In this document: positions 53,721 to 60,378 of the stretch, one piece after another | Layout: every line of letters starts with the position of its first letter | How positions within the stretch are numbered: the first letter of the stretch is position 1 | Source: Anoxybacter fermentans | GTDB taxonomy: Bacteria > Bacillota > Halanaerobiia > DY22613 | Assembly: GCF_003991135.1 (NCBI RefSeq) | Contig: NZ_CP016379.1 | Location: 1,302,001-1,366,000 of the forward strand | DNA length: 64,000 nucleotides | Reading direction: 5' to 3' | Notes under the pieces: generated by a model | The model's database searches: none | The model's input: only the letters and a program-made list of their open reading frames with translations | Told to the model about the DNA's origin: nothing | Program-made: the position numbers and the translations under genes

Positions 53721-53922
53721 CATTTTACCTTCTTAAATATACTTTAAAAAACATCTAAGAATCCCAATACTCGTGAGATTTCTTAGACACTTTCTTTCTA
53801 AACAAAATTTTATTATTATTTGTCAGAATCATTTAATTTTTAATAATTTTAAGACTAACTTAAGAAATAGTCTATAATTGAATGCTAAAATCATAAATTA
53901 ATATAATCACTATTAATAATAT
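53721..53922. other. A/T-rich intergenic sequence
   Basis: No gene seen; a promoter for the ABC module is expected here but no clear box pair was picked out. Confidence 0.3.
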
Positions 53923-54143
53923 AATTTTACTACAAAAAGCTAATTTTTCACTTCAAAAGAAATTTTTAGAACCATCTAAAGTTCGATTTCAGTCGAAATA
54001 AGGCACACTAATCAATGGGCCCTCCTAACCCTTGATTAGCTCATCACATCCTGTGATGAGACCTTATTTCGGCTGAAATCTCACTAAGATGGTTAAACGA
54101 AAAATTTCTATATCGCTCAAAATTAGCTTTTTGCAGTTTAATC
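53923..54143 (-). mobile_element. MITE copy J (221 bp)
   Basis: Exact 7-bp duplication ATAATAT flanks it (53916-53922 and 54144-54150). On the minus strand the first hairpin has an AGGAT loop and the second pairs GGGTT with GGCCC through two G-U pairs around an AGGAG loop. Confidence 0.85.
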
Positions 54144-54228
54144 ATAATATTACTAAGATACAATGCAAAAAAACATTATCTAAAATAGTTATTTTTTTAT
54201 GCTCTGTCTATAACTAATTTTTAAAATT

Positions 54229-54298: not shown

Positions 54299-54973
54299 TT
54301 AGCGGCCTGAAGCACTAAAGAGATTTTGTTCTAGATAATGCAAAGTTTCTTCTAAATTTCGACCAGAATGGTATTCCCGAATAACCATCTCAAAGAAATG
54401 GCGAATCTTTTTAAGAGCCTCTTTTGTGGTTAAAAATTTAGCTACCGGCTGCCCAAGATGGGGGTGTCGGCCTAATCTTCCTCCTATTAACAATCTGATT
54501 CCTGTCTTCTCAATACTTAAAGCACCGCTAGAACAAACCCGGGCACAATCTCCGCAGGAAAGACAGCGCTCATGATTTAAACTAAATCCTTCTTCTGTCA
54601 ACAAAATAGCATCCTCCTGACATACCTTAATACAGGACCCACAATGTGTACACTTTTCTGGAACGGCACGCAAAGAAACTACCCCTTCAAGACCGATATC
54701 TTTAATCTGCGGCCTTGAACAACCATTCACACAGCCAGATATAGAAATCCGTAAAAAAGGATGAGAAACATTTTCACATGATAAACAATCTTTTAACTCA
54801 TTTATTAAATCTAATTGATCCATTAGATCCAGAATTTCCATTTCCAGGTCTTTAGGATCAACTACACCTTTAGGACAACCTAAAAGACTACCTCGACAAA
54901 CTTCAATTTTAACCGGCTCAGTAAGGTTAGCAATTAACTTTTTGGCCAATTTCCCCATTATAGATTTTCCCAT
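54299..54973 (-). CDS. Small siroheme/[4Fe-4S] sulfite-reductase-like protein
   Basis: The 224-residue protein has an N-terminal Cys pair (VCRGSLLGCPKG), then CLSC and SGCVNGCSRP (C-x3-C) near residues 62-85. These resemble the siroheme-[4Fe-4S] ligands of sulfite and nitrite reductases, with CLSC in place of the usual C-x5-C. Two ferredoxin motifs follow: CTHCGSCIKVC and CLSCGDCARVC. GRLGRHPHLGQPVAKFL near residue 165 is a family feature. It could be an AsrC-like reductase or an electron carrier; no AsrA/AsrB genes are adjacent. Confidence 0.7.
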   Translation of the reverse strand: MGKSIMGKLAKKLIANLTEPVKIEVCRGSLLGCPKGVVDPKDLEMEILDLMDQLDLINELKDCLSCENVSHPFLRISISGCVNGCSRPQIKDIGLEGVVSLRAVPEKCTHCGSCIKVCQEDAILLTEEGFSLNHERCLSCGDCARVCSSGALSIEKTGIRLLIGGRLGRHPHLGQPVAKFLTTKEALKKIRHFFEMVIREYHSGRNLEETLHYLEQNLFSASGR

Positions 54974-55061
54974 AACTTACCTCACCTCCCTATACATTCT
55001 ATAACTTTTAAGAGTATTTGTACAGGGTTTTAACATAATTTTTCGAAAATTTTTTTAGAAA

Positions 55062-55748
55062 TTACCCTATATTAATCCAACTTTCCAATTCAGAAGGCTT
55101 AAGAATGGTAATCCGATCACCTTCCAATTCAATAATCCCCTGCCTACGGAATTTAGATAAAATACGGGTGATGGTCTCTCTGGTTGTACCGATCATATTT
55201 GCCAGATCTTGACGGTTCAATTTCAATTGAAAGCTAATTTTATCTCCATCTTCCTTCCCATAGGTTTGAGCAAGACGTAAAAGCAAACTTGCAGTTCGTG
55301 AATGGGCATCAAAAAGTCCCAGTTCCTTAATCTTCATCTGGGCTTCCCTTAAACGTTTATTAAGAAGCTTTAAGAGTCTTATAGCTAATTCTGGCTGTTC
55401 CATAATCAATGCTTCAAAATCCTTCTTTTTGATCATCCCCACACAGGCATCTTCCAAAACCCGGGCAGTGGCAGGATATGCTTCATCAGAAAAGATAACA
55501 GCTTCTGCAAAGACAGCACCGGGTTCAATTAATTTCAAAATCTGCTCTCCTCCTTCGGGAGTAATCTTAGAAATTTTAACTCTACCGGACTTTAAAAAGA
55601 AAAAAGCCTCCCCTGGTTCTCCTTCAAAGAAAATAATACTTTCTTTTGGGTAATAACGTTCACTGGCCAGATTAGCAATTCTGGCCAGGTCATCTTCATC
55701 TAGAGATGCAAAGAGATGAATATTATGTAGATATTTTGCATTTTCCAT
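55062..55748 (-). CDS. Crp/Fnr family transcriptional regulator
   Basis: The 228-residue protein has a cyclic-nucleotide-like sensor domain (about 12-125, with GEPGEAFFFLKSGRVKI) and a C-terminal winged helix with NRQDLANMIGTTRETITRILSKFRRQGII. It lacks the N-terminal Cys cluster of oxygen-sensing Fnr, so it should not be an Fe-S sensor. It lies 20 bp after the B12 protein gene and 88 bp before the siroheme-like gene, so it probably controls one or both. Confidence 0.9.
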   Translation of the reverse strand: MENAKYLHNIHLFASLDEDDLARIANLASERYYPKESIIFFEGEPGEAFFFLKSGRVKISKITPEGGEQILKLIEPGAVFAEAVIFSDEAYPATARVLEDACVGMIKKKDFEALIMEQPELAIRLLKLLNKRLREAQMKIKELGLFDAHSRTASLLLRLAQTYGKEDGDKISFQLKLNRQDLANMIGTTRETITRILSKFRRQGIIELEGDRITILKPSELESWINIG

Positions 55749-55768
55749 AGAGATCGTCTCCCTTAAAA

Positions 55769-57406
55769 TTAAAAGATAATTTTTTTGATTCGCTCTTCCT
55801 CAGTAATAATATGATCTCTGGTAAAATCGTATGCATAACATGCTCCATTAACCATTTTAGTCATTAAAGCACCTTTAGCATTGGGGTTACCCTTTAGATG
55901 AGGAGCATCTAATAGTCCAATCTTAATAGCATGAGCAAGATTTTCCGGGTCAGTAAACGGATCATCTTTGCTTCCGCTAGCTTGTCCTAATTTTTTGATG
56001 GCATTAAGGAGAACCTGTGCTTCATTTAATAGTTCTTTTTTCCGTTCCTGAACACGCGGATCACAGGTCATATCAGGCAAGCCAAAGAGACAATTCTGGA
56101 TTACCTGGCGCACCATCTTACAACTTTCGATGATATCATCGGGTGTGGCTGCATGATCTGCTTCACAATAAGCAACAACATGGACAATATCAGGCTTAAG
56201 AGCCATTGCCAGGTAAGTAGACGAATTAAGTTGTCCTTTTGCCATATCCATGTCAACAGGAAAACTGGAAAGACCTGCTCTAACTTGAGTATAAACTTTA
56301 AAATTTTCATCTTCTAAAGAAGTTATCAGCTCTTTTTTCGCCAACATCTTGGCTAAATCCATTACTCCAGAAGTTCCCGGAGGAGTATTAAACATATATT
56401 GGGCAACATAATCTTTAACACCCATCTTTTTAGCATTATAAGCAGCCAGATAAGCCATCACCACAGCAATGGTATCATGGGCATCCCTGAGACTCCAATG
56501 GTGGGCTTCATTTACTTCCACAGGAATATTCCTTTCACCATGCCATTTCATTACCTGCTGGTTTTCTGCAATAGCAGCAGCAACTGGTCTTGGCCCGCGC
56601 CCATCAAGTTGATTATACCAGCTTAAAGGTACAGCACACCAGGCATTATTGATTGTCTCTTTTAGCATCTCTGCCATCTTTAAAAGATCCCTTGTACCGC
56701 TATAGCATCTTAAAAGAGGATAATTACCGCGGCGGGAAGCTTTATAGATTGCTCTTAAATCATCTTCAGTACGAATAGGTACACCCCCGGCCCCTGATTG
56801 TTTAGGATCCATCTCTTCCGGACGGAAGAAAGATTCTTGAGCATTTTGATCTGGGCCAAGTGAGATGACATCCAATACTTTTGCTTCAGCAATCTTTTCA
56901 ATCCCAGCTATGGTTTCCTCCAAAGAAGGTAATCCAAAATGATGCCTGATTACAGGAAAAGGAGCTTTTGCTTTAATTCGGTCTACAAGATTGTCTGGAT
57001 ATGATTCAGCTCCTTCTTTTCTATCCTCACCTTTTAAAAAGGCAATAATTTCATCTAAACCTTCTTCACCGGTAAAAATACGTTCAAAAAGCCCCACTTT
57101 GGCGGCCTCTTTAGCAACAGGGATTGTTCCTCCAAAAATATAGCGTGGTTTAGTTAAACCCGCTTCTAAAACAGCATTTTTTAACTCATTGAAAAGTTTA
57201 AAACCGGTCTCCGGTGTTAAGCGATAACCAACTGCCACCATTTCAGGTTCACTCTCGATAATAGCACCAATCAAATCCTTGATTGATACAGCAGGTCCTA
57301 AAAACTTAGTCCGATATCCAACATCTTCTGCTAAACGTAAAAAATTGAGAACGCCACCCACATGAACACAATTACCCAGGGCGGCGCCCAGAATTAGTGG
57401 TCTCAA
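55769..57406 (-). CDS. B12-binding mutase-like protein, substrate unknown
   Basis: The 545-residue product has an N-terminal cobalamin-binding fold (about 1-135): GNCVHVGGVLNFL corresponds to the DxHxxG motif with Asn for Asp, AVGYRLTPETG to the SxL region, and FGGTIP to the GG loop. The rest (about 150-530) looks like a TIM-barrel mutase domain, with SWYNQLDGRGP, QVMKWHGERNIPVEVNEAHHWSLRDAHDT and MFNTPPGTSG, reminiscent of glutamate mutase epsilon. The start is TTG at 57406 with AAGGAGGGG upstream. It overlaps the opine-dehydrogenase gene by 4 bp. It may be a single-chain AdoCbl isomerase; reaction unknown. Confidence 0.75.
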   Translation of the reverse strand: MRPLILGAALGNCVHVGGVLNFLRLAEDVGYRTKFLGPAVSIKDLIGAIIESEPEMVAVGYRLTPETGFKLFNELKNAVLEAGLTKPRYIFGGTIPVAKEAAKVGLFERIFTGEEGLDEIIAFLKGEDRKEGAESYPDNLVDRIKAKAPFPVIRHHFGLPSLEETIAGIEKIAEAKVLDVISLGPDQNAQESFFRPEEMDPKQSGAGGVPIRTEDDLRAIYKASRRGNYPLLRCYSGTRDLLKMAEMLKETINNAWCAVPLSWYNQLDGRGPRPVAAAIAENQQVMKWHGERNIPVEVNEAHHWSLRDAHDTIAVVMAYLAAYNAKKMGVKDYVAQYMFNTPPGTSGVMDLAKMLAKKELITSLEDENFKVYTQVRAGLSSFPVDMDMAKGQLNSSTYLAMALKPDIVHVVAYCEADHAATPDDIIESCKMVRQVIQNCLFGLPDMTCDPRVQERKKELLNEAQVLLNAIKKLGQASGSKDDPFTDPENLAHAIKIGLLDAPHLKGNPNAKGALMTKMVNGACYAYDFTRDHIITEEERIKKIIF

Positions 57407-58611
57407 TTATCAACCCCTCCTTCACGTTCACGAATAATATGACCTAAATCTACCACTCTTTCCACTTCGGATCCAACAGTAAATCTGCTTACCTTAGATG
57501 GACGACGTACTTTTACTTTACCTGTTTCAACATAACTCTGAATCTCTTTTACTGTCATTCCTGCAAGACCTAATTTCTCTACTGTACGTCCTATAGCCCA
57601 ATAATCCCTTTCATGTAAGAGGCACGCCATATCAATTATAGTATTAATAGCTGGGGTTGGAACTCCTAACATCCTACCTAATGAAGAAATAGGTACAAGA
57701 CTCATGGGCACATCTTCATAAATATATCTATGATCAATAGTAGCCGGTGCTTTAATACCATCATACTGACGATTATTTTGAAAGACTTCATATAAAGTAT
57801 TACCCTGAACGCCGTACACTTTACGCATCCAATCACGTGCAGTTAATACATCTACACCCAAACGCAATGCTACTGCCATCCGTTCATCATCAACCATCTG
57901 GGCAAAACGTGCAACTGACGGACTTATACCCTCATGATAATAAGTAAAATCTCCACGTGTCGATTCAATCCGTCCTACATTAAGGATAGTAGGTACTGGA
58001 TGAAAAACAGCTCCAATATTTTCTAGACTGGTCTTGAGAATATTTTTCGCAGGGGTAAACTGAGGAAATACACGGTGAAGCTTGTTATAAACTACTGGGG
58101 TATCTACAGCAGGAAAAGCGGCAATGGGGACTATATTCTTTAAACCAAAAATTCTGGCTTGTGCAGGCCCAATTACCCTGCTAGCATAAAGGAAGGTCTG
58201 AGTTTCTGCAATATAGCATTTCTTTTTAAAACCTTCCTCTTTCAAAATTTGAGCAAATTCTAGTGCCCCACCCGTTCTTCCTGGATTGAGCACCACAATT
58301 TGCCCATCCTCAAGAACCGGTACCAATGCTCTGGCAAAAAACTCGTGAGCTGTCGCTGGTGTTACAATCATAATAATGTCAACACCAGCAATTGCCTGCC
58401 GCAAATCCGTGGTCACTTTTTTCAACTTACCAAAACCATTGAAAACACCGCTTAAGTGAATTCCGCCTATTTTACGAACTGCTTCAATTCTCGTTGCAGT
58501 TTTGTTAAAAAGATTCACCTCATAACCCATAAGGGCAAGATGAGCAGCCATTGCCTGTCCTCCATGTCCCGCACCCAAAACAGCAAACTTTGGCTTACGT
58601 TCAAAAAACAT
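57403..58611 (-). CDS. NAD(P)-dependent opine/octopine dehydrogenase-family protein
   Basis: The family forms or cleaves N-(carboxyalkyl) amino acids with NAD(P)H. The 402-residue product has the Rossmann motif VLGAGHGGQAMAAHLA, then TPATAHEFFARALVP and GRTGGALEFAQIL, and the catalytic domain with HPVPTILNVGRIESTRGDFTYYHEGISPS, in which the HxxN-RIE stretch and YxEG match opine dehydrogenases. AAGGAGGG precedes the start. Coupling with a B12 mutase-like gene suggests a shared amino-acid pathway that cannot be named from this window. Confidence 0.85.
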   Translation of the reverse strand: MFFERKPKFAVLGAGHGGQAMAAHLALMGYEVNLFNKTATRIEAVRKIGGIHLSGVFNGFGKLKKVTTDLRQAIAGVDIIMIVTPATAHEFFARALVPVLEDGQIVVLNPGRTGGALEFAQILKEEGFKKKCYIAETQTFLYASRVIGPAQARIFGLKNIVPIAAFPAVDTPVVYNKLHRVFPQFTPAKNILKTSLENIGAVFHPVPTILNVGRIESTRGDFTYYHEGISPSVARFAQMVDDERMAVALRLGVDVLTARDWMRKVYGVQGNTLYEVFQNNRQYDGIKAPATIDHRYIYEDVPMSLVPISSLGRMLGVPTPAINTIIDMACLLHERDYWAIGRTVEKLGLAGMTVKEIQSYVETGKVKVRRPSKVSRFTVGSEVERVVDLGHIIREREGGVDN

Positions 58612-58734
58612 TTAAATCCCTCCTTTTTATTCGATATACCGACCTCCTTAATAGCTAGAAAAAATTATTTGACATAATATTATTATACTACACTTCGCAA
58701 AATGTATCAAATACTTCTTAGATAATACCCATAT

Positions 58735-58891
58735 GATTAAACTGCAAAAAGCTAATTTTAATCGCTATTAAAATTTTTCGTTAAACCACCTTAATGAGAT
58801 TAAAAAGAATGGCCTCATATGAGGATGTGATGAGTTAATGTTCGAAAAATTTCTTTATAAAGCGAAAAAATTAGCTTTTTGCAATAAAATC
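58735..58891 (+). mobile_element. MITE copy K (157 bp, decayed)
   Basis: The ends are GATTAAACTGC and GCAATAAAATC; flanks CCATAT and CTATAT agree at five of six. One hairpin with GAGGATG at the loop remains. Confidence 0.75.
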
Positions 58892-58983
58892 CTATATAAA
58901 AATAGATAATTCCCCTAAAAAATTATATGTACAGATTAAGAAAAATAGAATATCTTTTCTTTAAAAATTATATAAAAATTATT

Positions 58984-60378
58984 GGCTCTCCGTCAAATGT
59001 TGTGAAAGATAAGTTGGCTCCGTTGAATTGATTGGTAAATTGATTTTGAAATAAACATTTAAATTTAATAACTTAACATTGCATTAAATACTCTTCTCCT
59101 TAGATTCATAACATTTGGAACACCATATCCAATCCTTTTGATCAATTTAATCTTGTTATTGATACCCTCAGCAAAGCCATTGGTTATCTTAGTCTTAAAA
59201 TAATTTAGTATTTTTTCTTCCCATCTTTGTATTATCTTTTTTACCTGGTAAAAAGGCATCAGCTTGCTTTTTATTACTTCTTTATACCACCTTTTTAGAG
59301 CTCTGGTGGCTTCTTTCACATCATCTAGCTGCAATAGGTCTCTGAATTCCTCTTTTAATTCCCAGGCCTTTTCTAGAGCTGGACTGAGTTCAAATAATTT
59401 GATGAGCTTTTCATGTTCTTCATCTGTCAATTCTTCAGCTCGTTTTTGGAGTAATAAACGACTTTGAAAAAACTTTCTTCTCTGATGATTATTTACTGTT
59501 TGTTGAACTTGTTTTCTAACTTCATCAAGGGCTCTGTTCATTAAAGTTACAAGATGAAATTTATCTATAACAATTTTTGCATGAGTAAATGCTGCATCTG
59601 CTACTGCTTTGAACGGCCGCCACATATCCATAGAGATCGATTGAATCTGTCGTCTTTGTTCATCTTCCCAACAATTAAAGTAGTCAATTAAATCATCCTT
59701 TTTGCGAGTAGGTAAAATGTCAATTAACTCCCGATTAATTGGATCTGTAATGCTAACTCCATATTTATGGCGTTTTAAAACTGCAAATTCATCGATACTG
59801 ATGGCTTTTAATTGACTAAGTTTTGAAACTTGTTGTTTAATGAGAGGGTCAACTACTTTTTTAACTGCATTATTAACAGCTGTATAACTTAACCCGTTTT
59901 CTCTAGCAACTTTAGAATAATCCTTGCTGACAGTTTCTTTAGCAAGATATTTATCAAAGCGTTTGGTTTTACGGGCATATTTATCAATACTTTCATATTT
60001 TTCAGGGATACCCCTCTTATGACAATAAGGACAACGATATCTTTTCTTTAGAAGTCTAATGATTACTAGTTTACCTCTTATGGGGATGTCTCTAATATTT
60101 TGCCATTTTGTATCATGGATTTTATTAGTGATATTACCACACTGAGGACACACAATGTGATTTTTCTTTGCTTCAGCGATAAAAATATATCTGTCCTCCG
60201 TTGAAATAATTTCAGTTGCAATAATGTCTGGCAAATCAAGAAATTTTATGATATTATTATATTGCATTTGCTGGACTCCTTTCTTTGGTTTTTAGTTCGC
60301 AACTAATTAATTCAACGGAGCCAGCAAATGCCTTTTTATTTTTTATAATTTTTTCTTCACAACATTAATTATAGACCC
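58984..60378 (-). mobile_element. Complete ISL3-type insertion sequence (1395 bp)
   Basis: The outer inverted repeats share ATGTTGTGAA and GG-TCT positions (58984-59006 against 60356-60378). Inner inverted repeats of 20 bp (59015-59034 and 60303-60322) differ at two bases. The exact 8-bp duplication AAATTATT lies at 58976-58983 and 60379-60386. The transposase frame is intact. Confidence 0.92.
59065..60267 (-). CDS. ISL3-family transposase
   Basis: The 400-residue protein has an N-terminal zinc-binding region (CPQCG, CPYCH), a helix-turn-helix part and the DDE-type core with ISIDEFAVLKRHKYG (first Asp), SMDMWRPF (second Asp) and a C-terminal KTKITNGFAEGINNKIKLIKRIGYG (catalytic Glu). AAAGGAG precedes the start. 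All parts of the family are present, so the element may be active. Confidence 0.94.
   Translation of the reverse strand: MQYNNIIKFLDLPDIIATEIISTEDRYIFIAEAKKNHIVCPQCGNITNKIHDTKWQNIRDIPIRGKLVIIRLLKKRYRCPYCHKRGIPEKYESIDKYARKTKRFDKYLAKETVSKDYSKVARENGLSYTAVNNAVKKVVDPLIKQQVSKLSQLKAISIDEFAVLKRHKYGVSITDPINRELIDILPTRKKDDLIDYFNCWEDEQRRQIQSISMDMWRPFKAVADAAFTHAKIVIDKFHLVTLMNRALDEVRKQVQQTVNNHQRRKFFQSRLLLQKRAEELTDEEHEKLIKLFELSPALEKAWELKEEFRDLLQLDDVKEATRALKRWYKEVIKSKLMPFYQVKKIIQRWEEKILNYFKTKITNGFAEGINNKIKLIKRIGYGVPNVMNLRRRVFNAMLSY

Follow-up and report, generated by a model that had tools for sequence, protein, structure and literature searches.

The locus of an opine-type dehydrogenase and a probable B12 mutase in Anoxybacter fermentans

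The 64,000-nucleotide stretch of the Anoxybacter fermentans genome analysed here (the window; bases 1302001-1366000 of a 3,557,532-base single-contig genome) carries on its minus strand two overlapping genes, which encode an opine-type (CENDH-like) NAD(P)-dependent dehydrogenase of 402 amino acids (ODH; window positions 57403..58611) and a single-chain, adenosylcobalamin (AdoCbl) mutase-like protein of 545 amino acids with a TTG start (MUT; 55769..57406). The two genes share the 4 bp TTGA (57403..57406) between the end of ODH and the beginning of MUT, suggesting that they are translationally coupled; a GGAGGGG Shine-Dalgarno-like stretch precedes the TTG start, which aligned with the starts of most homologues. 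Downstream on the same strand follow a gene for a Crp/Fnr-type regulator, 20 bp past MUT (55062..55748; cNMP_binding 6.7e-25, HTH_Crp_2 5.2e-22), and one for a NIR_SIR/4Fe-4S protein of 224 amino acids, 88 bp past the Crp/Fnr gene (54299..54973; NIR_SIR 9.6e-10, Fer4_9 3.4e-11). The coordinates of these four open reading frames (ORFs), the 4-bp overlap and the 20-bp gap agree with the original prediction, which a model had made from the sequence and which had taken the four genes for one cluster.

The opine-type identity which that prediction gave to ODH was borne out, as ODH matched the Octopine_DH domain of Pfam (E 4.2e-52), shows the membership features of PF02317 and has as its nearest solved relative 1bg6, an N-(1-D-carboxylethyl)-L-norvaline dehydrogenase (E 1.7e-80, residues 8-362). 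Three residues which we take, from the opine dehydrogenase literature, to be catalytic were kept among 78 distinct homologues: His204 in all 78, and Arg295 and Asp300 in 77 each, the remainder being gaps.

Distribution and conservation of the gene pair

A profile scan of a named species collection confirmed 277 MUT relatives; only the 80 best matches were retained, so that distant members are under-sampled. In all 97 loci were examined, yielding 93 MUT ORFs, or 86 after removal of identical copies; four loci were excluded for want of a MUT ORF (L035 and L036, weak or partial matches; L062 and L093, named loci in which the ORF caller called none). ODH was the next gene upstream, on the same strand, in 71 of the 79 distinct MUT loci with at least 1200 bp of upstream sequence (the window included; 7 of the 86 had less and were left out), and the gap between the two genes had a median of -4 and was 0 or less in 60 of these 71 adjacent pairs. 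Conservation of the pair in other genomes, which had been proposed as a check on the prediction, was thus found far beyond this genome. Elsewhere the order varied: GlmL lay between ODH and MUT in L047, a ligase, a thioesterase-like ORF and GlmL lay between them in L071, and ODH was downstream of MUT in L096 and L111, as it was, by 1 bp, in L104 (outside the 79). ODH still adjoined MUT in relatives of approximately 30-41% identity (L176, L177, L178 and L179). The very divergent MUT of L178 (4521-6362) and L179 (4466-6369), each paired with ODH, has a canonical DxHxxG motif, and the L179 ORF is broken into two frames.

In a sample of 299 genomes of the host phylum MUT was matched at E 0.001 in 65, and after four weak rows (G002, G006, G096 and G145, 18-21 bits) were dropped it was counted in 61; in a sample of 61 relatives it was matched in 18, from which G002 and G006 were then dropped. 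Holders among the best 80 of the 277 relatives were mostly Firmicutes, and many of the named hosts are, we assume, anaerobic amino-acid fermenters. Other contigs, one to three each, were titled Thorarchaeota, Neomarinimicrobiota, Aminicenantes, Cloacimonadota, Armatimonadetes, Thermotoga, Sumerlaeota and others, titles to be read knowing that metagenome bins can be wrong. One ODH-MUT pair (L108, 9995-11650) lies on a Thorarchaeota-titled chromosome record of 3.16 Mb, and another (L113) belongs to Thermoanaerobacterium saccharolyticum strain NTOU1. A tblastn search of 72,556 plasmid records with MUT gave no match. An apparent MUT-Crp fusion of 751 amino acids in L023 and L038 was counted as an assembly gap, because close to the joint the ORF contains an X, a residue of unknown identity.

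Neighbours were counted at the 86 loci, many of them short, among the same-strand genes up to five genes away from MUT. A Crp gene of the same kind was present at only 9 of the 86 (the window and eight relatives of its class) and was rejected as a core part; it is a local addition. When the Fe-S protein was compared by BLAST with the ORFs of the other 96 loci, nothing matched at E 0.001; its gene was dropped as a part of the pathway and is probably a neighbour outside the unit. The four genes were thus not confirmed as one cluster, and what stands of it is the ODH-MUT pair. The Fe-S protein itself consists of a partial NIR_SIR domain with 4Fe-4S motifs, and its next match in its own genome scored 43 bits over 51 residues.

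A prediction of a B12-dependent family, made in 2009, is reportedly the work of Zhang et al. PMC2667541 (2009) describes a predicted B12-dependent family in 11 bacteria which has an N-terminal B12 domain, is “always adjacent” to an octopine/nopaline dehydrogenase, in several organisms also lies close to Ddl and asparagine synthase, and is given no function. MUT has the N-terminal B12 domain and the adjacent pfam02317 dehydrogenase, and so, matched by description, it is almost certainly of the same family; the pair had therefore been reported before. What is added here is the GlmE-type fold, the GlmL link, the Cys motif, the non-canonical ligase group and the Orr-like racemase, together with archaeal-titled and distant family members. 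PMC2667541 was the sole paper found on the family, and the open-access papers searched gave no reaction for it. The statement that no known pathway unites an AdoCbl isomerase with an opine dehydrogenase held, in that none was found in the open-access papers searched, with the limit that subscription papers may hold a follow-up; the accessible part of PMC7435645 makes no mention of octopine.

MUT has the fold of a glutamate mutase

The N-terminal B12 (Rossmann) domain of MUT (residues ~2-125; 57032..57403, minus strand) carries the motif N-C-V-H-V-G-G and narrowly passed the Pfam B12-binding cut-off (32.9 bits against 32.1, residues 5-119), while the MutE match remained below its own (24.6 bits against 26.6). 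Some relatives reached 27-36 bits with MutE over part of the profile, compared to 450-786 bits for full-length GlmE. The window protein had no NCBIfam match; over 37 family members the matches were to MtgC corrinoid proteins (28), OraE (15, weak) and MutE (5, weak). A single-sequence search among solved structures found no relative of MUT, and a 12-sequence profile found B12 domains only, apart from chance-level rows.

An AlphaFold model from 12 sequences (predicted local distance difference test, pLDDT, 82.9) had GlmE as its top match (Foldseek, 6h9e_B, E 3.9e-15), and a model from 37 sequences (pLDDT 91.4, predicted template modelling score 0.84) matched GlmE 1cb7_B best, with Z 32.7 over 372 aligned residues, a root mean square deviation of 3.0 and 16% identity. 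Next came GlmE 6h9e_B (Z 32.5), lysine 5,6-aminomutase (30.3) and OraE (27.6), with methylmalonyl-CoA mutases at 21.7 at best, and the order of matches agreed between the two models. The part that follows the B12 domain (residues ~134-542; 55781..57007, minus strand) is, by this structure comparison, a glutamate-mutase-like TIM barrel with a C-terminal part, while the B12 domain resembles corrinoid proteins (4jgi_B, Z 16.3, 121 aligned). A B12-binding domain and a glutamate-mutase-like barrel in one chain, as had been predicted, are therefore supported by the model and its fold matches. A viral structure library gave nothing informative.

The prediction had also read Asn in place of the Asp of the DxHxxG motif, and here it was one residue out, as alignment with 4jgi and OraE puts Cys13 at the Asp place, preceded by Asn12. 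The base-off/His-on signature DxHxxG is thus absent from the window protein, which reads CxHxxG. Among the 86 distinct proteins, 79 have Cys and 7 have Asp at position 13, and His15 and Gly18 are invariant (86/86); the distant relatives read DAHTLG (L178), DAHTMG (L179) and DCVHSLG (L176 and L177). Since Asp occurs at position 13 in 7 of the 86 and in distant relatives, its loss is typical of most, not all, of the family.

The GlmL link and the class of the enzyme

GlmL is an ATPase-like accessory protein of glutamate mutase, with a reactivating role. Two genomes encode MUT fused to it: G137, where PF13941 scored 276 bits over residues 695-1210 of 1233, and G167, where the MutL/GlmL domain scored 273 bits over residues 694-1209 of 1214. 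In both fusion loci (L176, 4306-8007; L177, 1739-5383) ODH stands just before the fused gene, and a gene for a C26 peptidase is close by. GlmL neighboured MUT at 5 of the 86 loci, and the two linked copies that were scanned passed the cut-off of 475 for the glutamate-mutase type, with 595 and 607 bits, and fell under the cut-off of 600 of the ornithine-type model (389 and 400 bits).

The two genes also occur together across genomes. GlmE was counted as present above 100 bits, which takes in partial matches of 192-308 bits; the MutE cut-off was passed in 79 of the 299 genomes, and G066, G112, G150, G171, G236, G286 and G324 (best at most 36 bits) were dropped. Among the 227 phylum genomes without GlmE, 49 had MUT, 18 had GlmL and 16, in 7 families, had both (hypergeometric p 2.7e-10, uncorrected for kinship), and in the sample of 61 relatives all five genomes with GlmL and without GlmE carried MUT (p 8.8e-5). 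The orphan GlmL of G055 and the GlmL-GlmE set of G028 have the same Rph-like gene (by eye) behind them, which would fit a loss of GlmE with GlmL retained. In addition Glu330 of GlmE, an adenosine ligand, aligns with Glu415 of MUT, which is invariant (86/86). The GlmL fusions and the co-occurrence of orphan GlmL with MUT make it probable that MUT is a genuine AdoCbl mutase, and that it is a radical one, of the type of glutamate mutase, we consider very likely.

Two other assignments were weighed against this one. MUT would be a corrinoid methyltransferase or a B12 sensor, rather than a radical mutase, if its B12 domain were the guide, as this is most like methyltransferase corrinoid proteins (4jgi; MtgC in 28 of 37) and a Crp gene follows it in the window; the mutase barrel, the GlmL fusions, the orphan GlmL, the conserved Glu415 and the presence of Crp at 9 of 86 loci only make this most improbable. 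In the PLP (pyridoxal 5'-phosphate)-dependent AdoCbl aminomutases the PLP lysine sits in the B12 domain. That MUT could be such an enzyme, like ornithine 4,5- or lysine 5,6-aminomutase, is suggested by the next structural matches (Z 27-30), by the occurrence of an Orr-like racemase and by the weak OraE matches of 15 of 37 proteins. However, no position from 1 to 125 of MUT has Lys in at least 60 of the 86, so that no PLP lysine is evident in its B12 domain, GlmE scores higher, and neither of the two linked GlmL copies that were scanned is of the ornithine type; we regard a PLP-dependent aminomutase as quite unlikely.

Glutamate or another amino acid as substrate

A. fermentans has its own glutamate-mutase operon at ~1.856-1.862 Mb (L145, 6251-11696), with a B12-binding subunit, GlmL (677 bits), GlmE (786 bits) and methylaspartate ammonia-lyase; an ORF of the Asp/Glu racemase family (L145, 10887-11696) also lies in it. 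As the host has this separate operon, a substrate other than glutamate is likely for MUT. GlmE was also present in 12 of the 61 MUT genomes of the phylum sample.

The available part of PMC9545868 describes a substrate claw in GlmE of Arg66, Arg100 and Arg149, with further contacts from Glu171 and Tyr177. The profile alignment of MUT with GlmE is colinear but weak (hhalign probability 11 and 19%), and in it Arg66 falls on His156 (85/86) and Arg149 on Tyr235 (86/86), while Arg100 falls either on the variable Arg195, across a gap, or, ungapped, on Gln190 (86/86), the pairing which we would prefer. Two invariant arginines of MUT, Arg154 and Arg233, stand two residues before His156 and Tyr235. The comparison is suggestive only. 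That MUT is a second glutamate mutase, whose product 3-methylaspartate would then be N-alkylated by ODH, would fit the shared fold and accessory protein, but it is made unlikely by these claw replacements (as far as the weak alignment can be trusted), by the genomes that hold GlmE as well and by a MutE score near or below the cut-off.

Ligases, racemases, peptidases and gene order around the pair

A non-canonical ligase of the Ddl (D-Ala-D-Ala ligase) kind was found near MUT at 11 of the 86 loci, and in L184 ODH, MUT and the Ddl-like gene stand in a row. Four of the 11 operon copies were scanned and scored 138, 175, 161 and 215 bits, under the NCBIfam Ddl cut-off of 243, and in a tree the Ddl-like proteins fell outside the two canonical Ddl groups. 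The window genome has its own Ddl-like copy (1,197,106-1,198,062), which is far from MUT and joins the L071 operon copy with 99/95 support, as well as a canonical Ddl at 1,434,696 and an ornithine racemase (Orr) over cut-off at 104,851. The Ddl genes beside the pair in L050, L054, L060 and L076 were rejected as partners, being canonical and on the other strand. An Orr-like enzyme was present at 3 of the 86 loci (one scanned, 422 bits, cut-off 480) and asparagine synthase AsnB at 8, where it was rejected as a specific partner, the L061 protein passing the ordinary asparagine synthase B cut-off.

Locus L185 (5282-12358) holds ODH, MUT and an ATP-grasp gene beside a DegT aminotransferase and genes which by eye look like those of surface glycans; the ATP-grasp protein matches PylC-like_N weakly, with 23.2 bits against a cut-off of 27.

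Taken together the neighbours suggest that amides are made or cleaved here and that the amino acid concerned may be D-configured. In the case of cleavage the pair would be catabolic: an imported opine or peptide would be hydrolysed, ODH would split the opine oxidatively and MUT would rearrange the freed amino acid for fermentation. Consistent with this, a C26 peptidase lies beside the pair in L039 (with a 67%-identical MUT), L176 and L177, along with transporter-like ORFs (by eye, peptide-transporter- or solute-binding-like), an amidohydrolase lies upstream in L094 (Amidohydro_3; by eye D-aminoacylase-like), and the hosts are mostly Firmicutes, many of them presumably fermenters of amino acids. 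On the other side ATP-consuming ligases (Ddl-like at 11 and AsnB at 8 of 86 loci, ATP-grasp in L185) are commoner than C26, and L185 adjoins the aminotransferase and glycan-type genes just mentioned. We therefore hold the catabolic pair to be possible, though rather doubtful.

Several other recurrent neighbours were read as kept gene order and rejected as partners. Lnt was found at 11 of the 86 loci, in relatives of the window's class and their named twins only; Lgt recurs in the group of L048-L077 and V-ATPase in another group; RqcH/NFACT is near the pair in the class relatives and in L044, L045, L062 and L087, across distant Firmicutes and mostly on the opposite strand, and a P-type ATPase is near it also in L045 and L101. 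Lnt and NFACT were checked with Pfam in one copy each, whereas P-type ATPase, Lgt, V-ATPase, EF-G and OppDF were named by eye.

The window cluster is flanked by two elements resembling miniature inverted-repeat transposable elements, at 53911-54155 and 58731-58895, which are in opposite orientation and have related terminal inverted repeats (GCAAAAAGCTAATTT...); scoring 40 of 692 candidates in this genome gave at least 40 longer matches to the sequence at 58725-58890. An ISL3-family transposase gene lies just upstream of ODH (59065-60267; DDE_Tnp_ISL3 E 6.7e-74).

A possible pathway

With the folds, the conserved catalytic residues, the conserved pairing and the GlmL linkage seen by computation, we give a somewhat better than even chance to a scheme in which an amino acid that is not glutamate passes through a mutase step and then an opine dehydrogenase step. 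MUT would be an AdoCbl-dependent radical carbon-skeleton mutase of the glutamate-mutase class, with B12 domain and barrel in one chain, kept active by GlmL in many hosts and working on a non-glutamate amino acid. ODH, made from the same message, would work on the same metabolite, reductively joining the rearranged amino acid with a 2-oxo acid to give an opine, or carrying out the reverse. The AdoCbl radical chemistry, the order of the steps and their direction are what we infer here. In some lineages a non-canonical Ddl-type ATP-grasp ligase, and at three loci an Orr-like enzyme, would act from the same operon, and the ligase and racemase point to a D-configured amino acid ending in an amide. 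The leading reading is thus that of the original prediction, an amino-acid rearrangement followed by N-linked condensation or cleavage, which was a fair guess.

A number of observations weigh against this scheme. The B12 domain of MUT is nearest to methyltransferase corrinoid proteins, and the change from Asp to Cys in its motif could mean an altered cobalamin mode. GlmL does not reach its cut-off in 33 of the 49 MUT genomes without GlmE (of the 33, at least 19 carry an ornithine-type GlmL and up to 14 lack both types), so that GlmL is not obligatory, and the relatives G017 and G059 have MUT with neither GlmL nor GlmE. ODH was not found in the DNA examined at L044, L082, L097 and L107 (4 of 79). 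The claw comparison is uncertain because the alignment is weak, and one claw arginine, Arg100, can be paired with an arginine (Arg195). The ligase was not found at 75 of the 86 loci, within the neighbourhood counted, the whole ligase group is weakly supported in the tree (82/59), and most MUT-bearing relatives have only canonical-Ddl-level matches. Finally the C26 peptidase near the pair in L039, L176 and L177 suits breakdown as well as synthesis.

A bolder form of the proposal, which by analogy would make the module a B12-based counterpart of pylBCD, has the mutase giving a methyl-branched D-amino acid, the non-canonical D-amino-acid ATP-grasp enzyme attaching it by an amide and ODH closing an imine or opine. 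We think this improbable, but were it true it would mean an undescribed dipeptide-like metabolite across many anaerobic bacteria and perhaps some archaea. To our knowledge few AdoCbl carbon-skeleton mutases have known reactions, and with the substrate of MUT, once found, both a further B12 reaction and a further pathway would be gained. The ODH pairing and the GlmL link make MUT assayable, as likely partner proteins are named. The pair marks unexplained amino-acid chemistry which was noticed in print in 2009, and its enzyme class can now be assigned with good confidence.

Comparison with known systems

MUT shares with glutamate mutase (GlmE/GlmS with GlmL; 1cb7, 6h9e) the barrel fold, the GlmL accessory protein and the equivalent of Glu330. 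It differs in being a single chain with the B12 domain first, in its low identity (16-17%), in lacking, by the weak alignment, Arg at two of the three claw positions, in having Cys for the Asp of DxHxxG in 79 of 86 proteins, and in adjoining ODH, not methylaspartate ammonia-lyase. The ornithine 4,5-aminomutase pathway has the genes Orr, OraE/S and a GlmL-like gene, and here too an AdoCbl mutase, a racemase and a GlmL-like gene recur together; in MUT, however, the B12 domain is at the other end and has no conserved lysine, and the dehydrogenase beside it is of another family. ODH in turn is homologous to the 1bg6 norvaline dehydrogenase over residues 8-362 with the His, Arg and Asp conserved. 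The pyrrolysine genes pylB, pylC and pylD encode, according to the accessible text of PMC8225853, a radical enzyme, an ATP-dependent ligase and a third enzyme. Their likeness to the present module is an analogy only, that of a radical enzyme on an amino-acid skeleton, an ATP-dependent ligase and a third enzyme, as PylB is a radical S-adenosylmethionine enzyme whereas MUT would use B12.

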